In this document: positions 52,180 to 56,280 of the stretch, piece by piece
How the letters are laid out: every line of letters starts with the position of its first letter
Numbering within the stretch: the stretch's first letter is position 1
Origin: Rhodanobacter sp.
GTDB taxonomy: Bacteria; Pseudomonadota; Gammaproteobacteria; Xanthomonadales; Rhodanobacteraceae
Direction: 5' to 3'
NCBI GenBank assembly: GCA_030148505.1
Contig: JASBTI010000027.1
Span: forward strand, 1-64,000
Length of the DNA stretch: 64,000 bases
Made by a program: the position numbers and the translations under genes
Notes under the pieces: generated by a model
The model's input: the letters and a program-made list of their open reading frames with translations, nothing else
Told to the model about the DNA's origin: nothing
Database searches by the model: none

Positions 52180-52416
52180 ATGCAACCCACGACCGGCATC
52201 TACCGTCATTACAAGGGACAGCGTTACCGCGTGCTGGGTATCGCTACGCATAGCGAAACCGAGGAATCGCTAGTGGTCTACCAAGCGCTTTATGGTGACC
52301 GAGGCTGGTGGGTCCGGCCGGCGGCGATGTTTTGTGAAACCGTCGAAGTGGACGGTGAACCGCTGGCACGCTTTGCCCTGGAACAAGCCGATAGCGACGA
52401 CAGCACGCCGGCCTGA
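52180..52416 (+). CDS. DUF1653-domain protein
   Basis: 78 residues: GIYRHYKGQRYRVLGIATHSETEESLVVYQALYGDRG-type sequence (key parts GIYRHYKGQRYRVLG and VVYQALYGDRGWWVRP), then MFCETVEVDG. This is the whole DUF1653 fold, a small beta-barrel of unknown function sometimes fused to hydrolases. Ribosome site CGGCGGAG in front of the ATG. It lies between the divergent pmbA and yjgA genes, 28 bases before the latter on the same strand. Confidence 0.92.
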   Translation: MQPTTGIYRHYKGQRYRVLGIATHSETEESLVVYQALYGDRGWWVRPAAMFCETVEVDGEPLARFALEQADSDDSTPA

Positions 52417-52444
52417 GCCCTATCCCTTTGCAGGAATCGAACCC

Positions 52445-52996
52445 GTGAGCCCGAGCCGCAGCCGCAACCAGACCGAACTTGACGACGAGGACTACGGTCC
52501 CAGCCGCACCCAGCAACGTCGCGAGGCGCTGGCCACGCTGACCTTGGCAGGGCAGCTGACCGAATTGCCGCCGAGCCGGCTGGCCAAACTCGAGTTGCCC
52601 GAAGACGTACGCCGCGAGATCGACATCACCCGTCGCATGACCGCGCATGGCGCGCGCAAGCGCCAGCTAGCCTTTCTGGCCAAGGTGATGCGTCGTTATG
52701 GCGACGACGACTTTGCCGCGGTGCGGGCCGAGCTCGGTGAAAATCGGGACAGACAACGCCAGGAAAACGCCGCGATGCATCGCCTCGAAGCGATGCGCGA
52801 GCGGTTGATCGGCGAGGACGACAAGGCGCTGTCCGAGTTGATCGATGCACATCCACAGATCGACCGCCAACACCTGCGCTCGCTGGTCCGTCAGGCCCGC
52901 AACGAACGCGATGCCGGCAAGCCGCCACGAGCCTTTCGCGAGCTATTCCAATTACTGAAGGATCTACCTCGGGATCCTCCCGGAGATGGTGCCTGA
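52445..52996 (+). CDS. yjgA: ribosome-associated protein YjgA (DarP)
   Basis: A 50S-assembly factor that binds late pre-50S particles and helps form the peptidyl-transferase centre. 183 residues from a GTG with AGGA eight bases before, the same length as E. coli YjgA. Features are PSRTQQRREALATLTLAGQL, LPPSRLAKLELPEDVRREID and the basic helix HGARKRQLAFLAKVMRR, and the C-terminal RQHLRSLVRQARNERDAGKPP with FRELFQLLK is conserved. It faces away from pmbA, an arrangement common in gammaproteobacteria, here with a DUF1653 gene inserted. Confidence 0.95.
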   Translation: MSPSRSRNQTELDDEDYGPSRTQQRREALATLTLAGQLTELPPSRLAKLELPEDVRREIDITRRMTAHGARKRQLAFLAKVMRRYGDDDFAAVRAELGENRDRQRQENAAMHRLEAMRERLIGEDDKALSELIDAHPQIDRQHLRSLVRQARNERDAGKPPRAFRELFQLLKDLPRDPPGDGA

Positions 52997-53088: not shown

Positions 53089-54456
53089 TCAGATCGCAAG
53101 CCAAATGTAAAGGTAGAGCGTATTGTTGTCGCTGGCATTGCGTCCGGCACCGTCGATGTTGTGCACCAGCCCGCTGAACTTCGAATACAAGGTGTATTGC
53201 AAGCCTAGGCGCATGTTCGCATCAGGCTCCTTCCAGGAGGTAGCTTGTCCAAACGGGTTGTAGTCGAATTCAATCATCCCACCCTGCGTATTTGGCGAAC
53301 CCTGATTGCCATATAGCGCACGGTCGCTGCTCCCATTGTTGGTGAAGGAAGCCAGAGTCAGCCCATAGGTATTGCGATACCAGTAACTGCCCTTGAGGTT
53401 GAAGGATTGCAGGGTGTCATGCAGATGCGAGGAACCTCCGTCGGCAAATGTCGCATTCAGCTTCTGACGCTCGCTGACATAGAGGCCTTCGAAAGTCAGC
53501 GCATGGCTGCCAGCCACATACTGATAGGTCGAATCCAGACCCAGATCGCTGAAATGATCCGTAGGACCGGCCAGCGGCATGGGGTTGCCGGCAGCATCGG
53601 CGCCGACCAGCCCACGCTTCAGGTCAAGTAGAAAGCCGCCCAGAGAAAAGTCTCCGCTGGGCAGGTTCCACGTATACGCCACGCGTGCATAAGGCGCGGT
53701 GCCAGACAACTTGCCATCGTAGCCCGCATTGACATGATTCAAGAAAGCCACCGACAGTGACCGATAGCCGCCGACCTCCACATACCACTTGCCATCCAAC
53801 TGCGCGTAGGCACTGGCGCCGATCGACTGACCACCGATACCGCCAAACAGCATCGGCGCGGCGGGCGCCCCGGGGGCAAGATCCGCTGCCATATAGGGAT
53901 ACTGCCAGGCGGGCGCGGTATTGAAAACGTCGCTGACCGTGGGGTTGTTGTTGACGGAAATACCCCAGATACCCGTATGGTCCCCGTGGCTGAACATCCG
54001 TGCATAGCGCACATCAGCATTGTCCCAGCCCAACAGGCCGCCATTCTCCGAGTAGGTCGCCTGGGCAAATACGCCGACGTGATCACTCAGACGTCCAGCC
54101 AGAAATGCCGAGGCCTGCTGCAACTCGAAGTTGTTGTTGGTATCGAAATTCGTGTTCGGGGCCGTAGGTTGTGCCTTGCTGGTGTGAGTGAACGACTCGA
54201 CCAACATCGCCGATAACGGCAGCGTGGCCTGGTTGCCAACCTTCATGGTATAGCCCATGAGCTTGAACTGGCGACCGAACTGGGTAAGTTCGGGACCGAA
54301 GCCGCCAACATGACAAGCCGTGCATGCCAGACGCGTCTGTCGCGCATAGGACGGCACCGCTTGGGCCAAGGTCGGCACCAGCAACAGAATCACAGCTACC
54401 ACGACATAGCGCGGTAACCAGTCCAGGGTTGAGACCCATCTCCGCTTCGTATTCAT
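53089..54456 (-). CDS. monohaem c-type cytochrome continuous with a predicted outer-membrane barrel
   Basis: 455 residues. After a signal anchor (about 12-35, ending AQA) comes SYARQTRLACTACHVGGFGPELTQFGRQFKLMGY, with one haem motif CTACH near residue 47 and the GxxLTPFGR-type follow-up. From about 70 to the end the sequence alternates like a porin (FELQQASAFLAGRLSDHVG, WYVEVGGYRSLSVAFLNH, MRLGLQYTLYSKFSGLVHN) and ends LYLYIWLAI. This points to a single-haem domain fused to a beta-barrel. Similar proteins in other proteobacteria are uncharacterised; electron transfer at the outer membrane is a possibility. GAGGAG precedes the ATG at 54456. Confidence 0.8.
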   Translation of the reverse strand: MNTKRRWVSTLDWLPRYVVVAVILLLVPTLAQAVPSYARQTRLACTACHVGGFGPELTQFGRQFKLMGYTMKVGNQATLPLSAMLVESFTHTSKAQPTAPNTNFDTNNNFELQQASAFLAGRLSDHVGVFAQATYSENGGLLGWDNADVRYARMFSHGDHTGIWGISVNNNPTVSDVFNTAPAWQYPYMAADLAPGAPAAPMLFGGIGGQSIGASAYAQLDGKWYVEVGGYRSLSVAFLNHVNAGYDGKLSGTAPYARVAYTWNLPSGDFSLGGFLLDLKRGLVGADAAGNPMPLAGPTDHFSDLGLDSTYQYVAGSHALTFEGLYVSERQKLNATFADGGSSHLHDTLQSFNLKGSYWYRNTYGLTLASFTNNGSSDRALYGNQGSPNTQGGMIEFDYNPFGQATSWKEPDANMRLGLQYTLYSKFSGLVHNIDGAGRNASDNNTLYLYIWLAI

Positions 54457-54840: not shown

Positions 54841-56280
54841 CTAGGAAACCGTGCCGCCCACGGTCATGGCATCGATTTTCAGCGTGGGCTGACCGACCCC
54901 TACCGGCACGCTCTGTCCGTCCTTGCCGCAAACCCCGACACCCTCGTCGAGCTTGAGATCGTTGCCGATCATCGAGACCCGGGTAAGCACGTCCGGGCCA
55001 TTGCCGATCAAGGTTGCACCCTTTACCGGTGCGGTGATCCTCCCATCCTCGATCAAATAGGCCTCGCTGGCGGAGAAGGTGAACTTGCCATTGGTGATGT
55101 CGACCTGACCACCGCCGAAATTGGGTGCGTACAAACCCCTTTTGACTGAGCGGATGATCTCTGCCGGCTCATGCGAGCCTGCCAGCATGTAGGTATTGGT
55201 CATGCGCGGCATCGGCAAGGCCGTGAACGATTCGCGGCGACCGTTGCCGGTGGGTGCCATACCCATCAGCCGCGCGTTCAGCTTGTCCTGCATGTAGCCT
55301 TTGAGGATGCCATCCTCGATCAAGGTGGTGCATTCCGTAGGCGTACCTTCATCGTCGATACTGAGCGAACCGCGACGGCCTTGCAGGGTACCATCGTCCA
55401 CGATGGTGACCCCCTTGGCCGCTACGCGCTGGCCGAGGCGACCGGAGAACGCCGAGCTGCCCTTGCGATTGAAGTCGCCTTCCAGTCCGTGACCGATGGC
55501 CTCGTGCAGCAACACACCCGGCCAGCCAGGACCAAGCACTACCGTCATCTGCCCCGCGGGCGCATCGATGGAGTCGAGGTTCACCAGCGCCTGGCGCACC
55601 GCCTCGGCGGCGAAGTCGAGCGCCCGACCGTTCTCGATAAGCTCGCGGTAGCCATAGCGGCCACCACCGCCCGAATGGCCTTGCTCACGGCGACCGTTCT
55701 GCTCGGCAATCACCTGCACGTTGAGGCGTACCAGCGGCCGCACATCGGCTGCCAGGGTACCATCGGAAGCGGCGATGAGGATGGTATCCATGGTGGCGGC
55801 CAAGCTCACGATCACCTCCTTGATACGCGGGTCCCGGGAGCGTGCGTAGGCATCGACCTCGCGCAACAAGGCAATTTTGTCGGGATTGGGAAGGCTCTCG
55901 ACCGGATCGAGCGCGGGATACAACTGGTGGGCACCGTGCATCGACAAGGGCTTGCCAGCGCCTTTGCCATCGTGGGCAATCGCGCGTGCCGCCCGGGAGG
56001 CCTGCAGCAGCTGAGGCAGGACAATCTCGTCAGAATAGGCAAAGCCGGTTTTCTCGCCACTGATGGCGCGGACACCTACGCCTTGCTCGATCGAGTGACT
56101 GCCGTCCTTGACGATGCCTTCCTCCAGCAGCCAGGACTCACTGCGGGAATGCTGGAAGTACAGATCAGCGGCGTCGATCGACGGTCCCATCAATTGGGTG
56201 AACACTCGATCCAGATCACTGGTGGCCAGGCCACCGGGGAACAGCAACTTGCTCTCGGCTTGCGCGATCAGGGAATCCAT
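54841..56280 (-). CDS. tldD: metalloprotease TldD, catalytic subunit
   Basis: Zinc peptidase that with PmbA digests peptides threaded between the two subunits. 479 residues. The metal site [12 protein letters not shown] (HExxxH, about 260) is intact, and the conserved [65 protein letters not shown] and the terminal C-rich [18 protein letters not shown] are present. It follows yhdP by 77 bases in the rng-yhdP-tldD gene order seen across gammaproteobacteria. Confidence 0.97.

Follow-up and report, generated by a model that had tools for sequence, protein, structure and literature searches.

The gene studied here lies in a 64,000-nucleotide stretch of Rhodanobacter sp. DNA (the window) and encodes a protein that, judged by sequence comparison and a structural model, is a member of the Cyc2 family, with one haem site and an outer-membrane barrel in a single chain. 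We consider it likely that a bacterium close to Rhodanobacter uses this outer-membrane cytochrome-porin of the Cyc2 family to take electrons from dissolved Fe2+ and pass them to a soluble periplasmic carrier; the architecture is evident in the protein itself, while iron as the substrate in this organism would follow by analogy. A first-pass annotation had called such a fusion an unusual solution and had held that known porin-cytochrome conduits use separate multihaem proteins. Cyc2 is described as just such a fused monohaem cytochrome-porin Fe(II) oxidase, a 16-strand OprO/OprP-like porin whose N terminus carries a cytochrome plug, probably at the periplasmic face, and Cyc2PV-1 was shown by assay to oxidise Fe(II) (Keffer et al. 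2021, PMC8406198). Neither statement survives this comparison, and with the gene placed in the Cyc2 family the claim of novelty for the haem-barrel fusion is removed. Of the further suggestion that a built-in haem serves electron transfer at the periplasmic mouth, fusion and electron transfer stand, the position at the mouth would be expected by analogy, and the unusualness falls away. Rhodanobacter homologues of Cyc2 have already been published (He et al. 2017, PMC5566968), so that the window protein belongs to a known kind, and a similarity network ties Acidithiobacillus Cyc2 to Rhodanobacteraceae homologues (Li et al. 2023, PMC10654088).

Results

Table 1. Positions in the window of the cyc2-like gene, the parts of its product and the adjoining genes.
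Feature	Position	Strand	Basis
cyc2-like gene, predicted 455-aa outer-membrane monohaem cytochrome-porin	53089..54456	minus (read 54456 down to 53089)	intact ORF, homology, 16-strand model
predicted signal peptide, residues 1-33, cleavage between AQA and VPS	54358..54456	minus	by eye; helix 13-25 in AlphaFold2 model
haem segment, residues 34-65	54262..54357	minus	CXXCH kept in 80/80 named-record relatives; K65
predicted 16-strand beta barrel, residues 81-454	53095..54216	minus	AlphaFold2; VIA-align to OprO, OprP, OmpC
tldD, upstream neighbour (housekeeping)	54841..56280	minus	Pfam PmbA_TldD domains
yjgA/darP, convergent downstream neighbour (housekeeping)	52346..52996	plus	Pfam DarP

The reading frame opens with ATG, nine bases downstream of a GAGGAG that by eye would be the ribosome-binding site, and a promoter scan gave no site on its strand. 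A hydrophobic stretch, recognised by eye, ends at residues 33/34, and the protein is presumably secreted. Between the predicted signal peptide and the barrel lies the haem segment, VPSYARQT-RLA-CTACH-VGGFG-PEL-TQ-FGRQFK, which holds the only CXXCH of the protein (C45-T-A-C-H49, residues 45-49) and closes with FGRQFK at residues 60-65. The reading of signal sequence, CTACH, FGR-type segment and barrel as one polypeptide is borne out by the intact frame, the signal peptide seen by eye and the 16-strand model. No Pfam or NCBIfam model matched the window protein at E 1, so that filing by name yields nothing for it.

Structure prediction, which had been proposed as a check, did find a barrel. The AlphaFold2 model built on a 47-sequence alignment (mean pLDDT 85.6, pTM 0.83) has 16 long strands, with additional three-residue strands at 284-286 and 292-294, and short helices at 35-41, 45-48 and 59-66 surround the haem site. 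The haem segment is modelled less surely, with block means of 58-66 over residues 31-60 and values under 50 at residues 50-55, and hydrophobic alternation is weak in several of the predicted strands. VIA-align of the barrel model gave Z 21.8 with OmpC and 20.9 with both OprO (4rjw) and OprP (2o4v); Foldseek TM-scores by query length were modest, about 0.3-0.5 for the top matches and only 0.47 against 2o4v. General porins ranked first in the fold searches, and among the best 50 rows there was no haem-porin chain, which excludes nothing. By sequence, the PDB yielded weak matches only, the best at E 0.073.

Locus L194 served as the Cyc2 reference on account of its operon, where an AcoP-like gene, coxBACD, ctaAB and a rusticyanin-like gene lie downstream of the cyc2-like gene; these neighbours were named by sequence inspection, except for rusticyanin, which scores 137 bits against TIGR03095, under the model cut-off of 146.7, and no cyc1 was seen at the locus. 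BLASTP aligns the window protein with this rus-operon Cyc2 at 32% identity over residues 33-455 (E 1.6e-68, within a set of 151), and with Zetaproteobacteria-like Cyc2 (our own assignment) over 45-157 N-terminal residues, once over 329. The published description of Cyc2 gives a length of at least 365 aa and BLASTP similarity below 1e-5, the latter found here within the 151-sequence set where the paper used NCBI/IMG. It also gives a single N-terminal CXXCH after a signal peptide, present here with the signal peptide judged by eye only, and a porin of the OprO/OprP kind with 16 strands, as in the model. The published motif AXPXFAR[Q/K][T/Y] corresponds to AVPSYARQT, with Y37 in place of F and three residues before the CXXCH rather than five. 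Through Y37 the protein misses the strict form and fits the F/Y form A.P.[FY]AR[QK][TY]; 81 of the 151 homologues fit strict AXPXFAR and 110 fit the F/Y form, in a set that had been gathered with a looser version of the motif. The PXL element follows the haem histidine after five residues (CTACH-VGGFG-PEL) against a published four, and lies 3-12 residues downstream of CXXCH in 147/151 homologues.

Relatives in named records were collected with three search patterns that omit the haem motif, one of them lying just after it; there were at least 564 matches, of which 80 were kept, and all 80 contain exactly one CXXCH, which argues that the haem-barrel fusion is not due to chance. Eleven residues (L57, G61, F64, K65, G128, R150, G165, Y256, R258, G273 and D304) are invariant in 125 distinct homologues, a set from which the Zetaproteobacteria-like sequences, L069, L038/L039, short rows and duplicates were dropped. 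Every one of them is found in L194, and by alignment the conserved charged and tyrosine residues of the predicted barrel are common to the window protein and rus-operon Cyc2. Conservation of A33, P35, C45, C48 and H49 is built in, because the sets were collected with a motif containing them. Fifteen loci fell outside the motif-collected set. Some are fragments or identical or nearly identical copies, and L064, L073 and L083 were missed through a different reading of the ORF or motif; one CXXCH is present in 14 of the fifteen, the exception, L068, being a C-terminal piece.

In the homologue alignment the haem segment has no invariant Met and no invariant His besides H49. K65 is present in 68 of 69 distinct sequences of a second homologue set, with Arg in the remaining one (L095), and in 78/78 sequences of the named-record set, a count that is partly built in because one search pattern included FK. 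K65, 20 positions past C45, is a candidate for the distal haem ligand or a propionate partner. A search for published work on the Cyc2 axial ligand or monoheme gave, among the titles listed, none on the ligands of Cyc2, and the main text of PMC8406198 does not use the word "axial".

Among the matches listed, the closest come from the Rhodanobacter MAG FW106-10_bin.24, at 87% and 80% identity, mirroring the two copies of the window genome (3.68 Mb in 49 contigs), whose second copy, on contig C11, is 80% identical to the first. R. thiooxydans LCS2 has a relative at 71%, followed by Oleiagrimonas, Dyella, Lysobacter, Frateuria, mine-drainage and other MAGs, and by Thiomonas and Thiobacillus at 43-45%. 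The tree was a quick search, unrooted, without Cyt572 and with long-branch warnings, and its deep branches are not relied on; in it each of the two copies has its own FW106 partner, with support of 80 for the pair that includes the window copy and 100 for the pair that includes the C11 copy. From this copy-by-copy pairing the cyc2 duplication is probably older than both strains.

Within the genus of the window, 22 of 36 genomes hold a copy of at least 60% identity (one of them, G017, partial), seven have a more distant full-length relative only, one a weak N-terminal match only, and six none. No match was found in 24 sampled genomes from other families of the same order, and a profile search at 1e-5 matched 64/369 sampled genomes of the class and 82/299 of the phylum. 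Two genomes of the genus have a cyc2 relative of an FSRQV type, about 49-50% identical (L033 3117-4466 and L034 3537-4892), the first identical in its tree rows to a named MAG record (L139 9968-11308). A far more distant single-CXXCH protein of 444-462 aa (AMPEFARRYNLSCAACH..FPRLNKFGE) occurs in two genomes of the genus (L038 3087-4541 and L039 2232-3764) on a very long tree branch. In Rudaea cellulosilytica (L140) and a Rhodanobacter MAG (L163), both among the 80 loci kept, the ORFs are short or frameshifted, breaking off at about residue 180 although the match extends further, and these are likely decayed copies or sequencing errors.

In one neighbourhood scan our home-made gene caller often chose shadow frames, so only blast-confirmed neighbours were counted. 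The window copy has no electron-transfer gene next to it, and a further housekeeping gene, pmbA, lies on its yjgA/darP side. The order tldD-cyc2-yjgA recurs in four loci (L097, L100, L101 and L102); in L099, yjgA and pmbA adjoin the cyc2-like gene on a short contig, and in L103 the cyc2-like gene is on the opposite side of tldD. On contig C11 (L037 4292-10118) the second cyc2-like gene is followed by a di-haem CCP_MauG gene, both with third-position G+C of 0.61-0.62. Upstream of it are a histidine kinase (Pfam) and a response regulator (by eye), as well as an ORF that by eye resembles an IS3 fragment and has no Pfam match. The arrangement is repeated in L098.

The annotation had also proposed a survey of the fusion in related genomes together with neighbouring redox genes, and besides the single CXXCH throughout this showed that, of the 80 named-record loci kept from at least 564 matches, 12 have a HiPIP gene next to cyc2 (L111-L115, L119, L121, L122, L124, L125, L127 and L141). 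Adjacency was taken as gene midpoints within 1.2 kb, and 68/80 loci include 1.5 kb of upstream sequence. The HiPIP gene is divergent from cyc2 in 11 loci, from Rhodanobacter and Dyella, and codirectional in one Thermomonas MAG; the 11 divergent loci fall within one part of the tree and so represent perhaps a single event. A single HiPIP served as query, so that divergent HiPIPs may be missed, and Pfam confirmed the identity of the HiPIPs at L111 and in the window genome. The one HiPIP found in the window genome is on a different contig from the window copy. HiPIP is present in 36/36 genomes of the genus, which makes its co-occurrence with Cyc2 across the genus uninformative.

Contig C7 of the same genome carries a Calvin-cycle operon and, divergent from it, a LysR-type gene identified by eye (L200 6115-17416; L201 8661-12881). 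The operon comprises RuBisCO large and small subunits, an AAA protein, FBPase, phosphoribulokinase and transketolase, and the contig also has a PQQ methanol/ethanol dehydrogenase, a MoxJ-like protein (under the models' cut-offs) and S-(hydroxymethyl)glutathione dehydrogenase (FrmA). The RuBisCO large subunit, the only component counted, is present in 4/36 genomes of the genus; Cyc2 of the type with at least 60% identity occurs in all four of these and in 18 of the 32 others, an association that is not significant since the chance of four out of four, calculated by hand, is 0.12.

Discussion

The patterns detected are consistent with a conduit in which the haem domain would plug the periplasmic mouth of the barrel. 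Dissolved Fe2+ would enter the barrel from outside, the haem would oxidise it, taking the electron at the periplasmic mouth, and a soluble periplasmic carrier, possibly the genome's HiPIP or a cytochrome c, would move the electron on to respiration. In Dyella and some Rhodanobacter a HiPIP gene neighbours cyc2, which suggests that HiPIP may be the carrier that takes the electron from Cyc2. In Bradyrhizobium, Cyc2 is reported to be clustered with HiPIP (PMC5566968).

Several observations count against iron oxidation by this protein, namely Y37, motif spacings off by one or two residues, the behaviour of the KS isolate, the lack of an adjoining electron-transfer gene at the window copy, and the presence of relatives in Dyella, Frateuria and Lysobacter. 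These three are heterotroph genera. A Rhodanobacter isolate from culture KS is reported to have been unable to oxidise Fe(II) alone, although Rhodanobacter is still called an iron oxidiser in the same report (PMC11366258), and the KS model is one of mixotrophic Fe(II) oxidation by Rhodanobacter (PMC12622760).

The donor could be something other than Fe(II), such as Mn, reduced sulfur, uranium, an electrode or another dissolved or surface donor, and the wide spread of Cyc2 relatives in named species and MAGs is consistent with this, as are statements that non-iron roles are possible for homologues outside known iron oxidisers (He et al. 2017, PMC5566968; Keffer et al. 2021, PMC8406198). We nevertheless regard a non-iron donor as unlikely, given a haem segment and barrel signature in common with rus-operon Cyc2. 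On C11 a CCP_MauG gene accompanies the 80% paralogue, an arrangement that L098 repeats, and the Frateuria copy L145 has a CCP-like gene at a distance of 1.5 kb; this could point to a path for peroxide or redox stress, with the second copy feeding the neighbouring di-haem peroxidase or MauG-like enzyme. However, such a gene was found at 2/80 named-record loci only, L098 and C11 are almost one and the same locus, and the window copy has no gene of the CCP_MauG type, all of which make a peroxide path very unlikely.

An ordinary porin with a vestigial haem motif would account for the fact that porin makes up most of the length, but CXXCH in 80/80 relatives and K65 in 68/69 sequences indicate strong constraint on the haem end, and loss of haem function is highly improbable. 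Haem sensing or a haem-gated channel, also raised in the first-pass annotation, draws on the haem motif itself and nothing else; the homology to an electron-transfer protein extends along the mature length, and a by-eye look around the two copies noticed no haem-uptake gene, so that a sensing or gating role is scarcely credible.

Returning to Cyc2-type iron oxidation, the presence of two cyc2 copies and a Calvin-cycle operon in one genome makes iron-driven autotrophy of the window organism possible. Alternatively, the methanol-dehydrogenase cluster on C7 means that methanol may feed the Calvin cycle, and a Rhodanobacteraceae MAG with the full CBB gene set is described as being without a lithotrophy pathway (PMC9802188). 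A bolder proposal joins two statements: that a small Rhodanobacter lineage (4/36 sampled genomes) combines Cyc2 with a complete Calvin-cycle operon and is able to live as an iron-oxidising autotroph, not only as a mixotrophic partner of the KS type, and that in this family the haem is held, or ligated on its distal side, by the nearly invariant K65 and not by a His or Met. Taken jointly these are doubtful, and we would be somewhat surprised to see both hold. Rhodanobacter is common in acidic, metal-contaminated groundwater, and this relative of the genus, whose genome combines two cyc2 copies with a HiPIP and a Calvin-cycle operon, offers an organism in which such ideas can be tested.

Compared with known systems, the window protein resembles MtrAB, MtoAB and PioAB as a putative outer-membrane electron conduit. 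It differs from them in having one CXXCH in the barrel's own chain and 16 predicted strands, whereas in those complexes a 26-strand barrel houses a decahaem cytochrome that is a chain of its own (PMC8406198); PF11854 (MtrB_PioB) had no match in the window genome at E 0.001, a search whose controls included no known MtrB above the cut-off. The window protein has genus and gene kind in common with the Cyc2 homologue reported for Rhodanobacter in culture KS (He et al. 2016, as cited in PMC5566968), and the published architecture and the cytochrome segment with Cyc2PV-1 of Mariprofundus (Cluster 1), compared through its description and Zetaproteobacteria-like sequences. In contrast to rus-operon Cyc2 (the A. 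ferrooxidans type, Cluster 2 of McAllister and Keffer), the window locus lacks a rus/cox operon and the protein is on a separate branch of the quick tree, but the two are alike in a CXXCH following A-x-P-x-[FY]-A-R, in 32% identity over the mature length and in the barrel residues common to L194 and the window protein.
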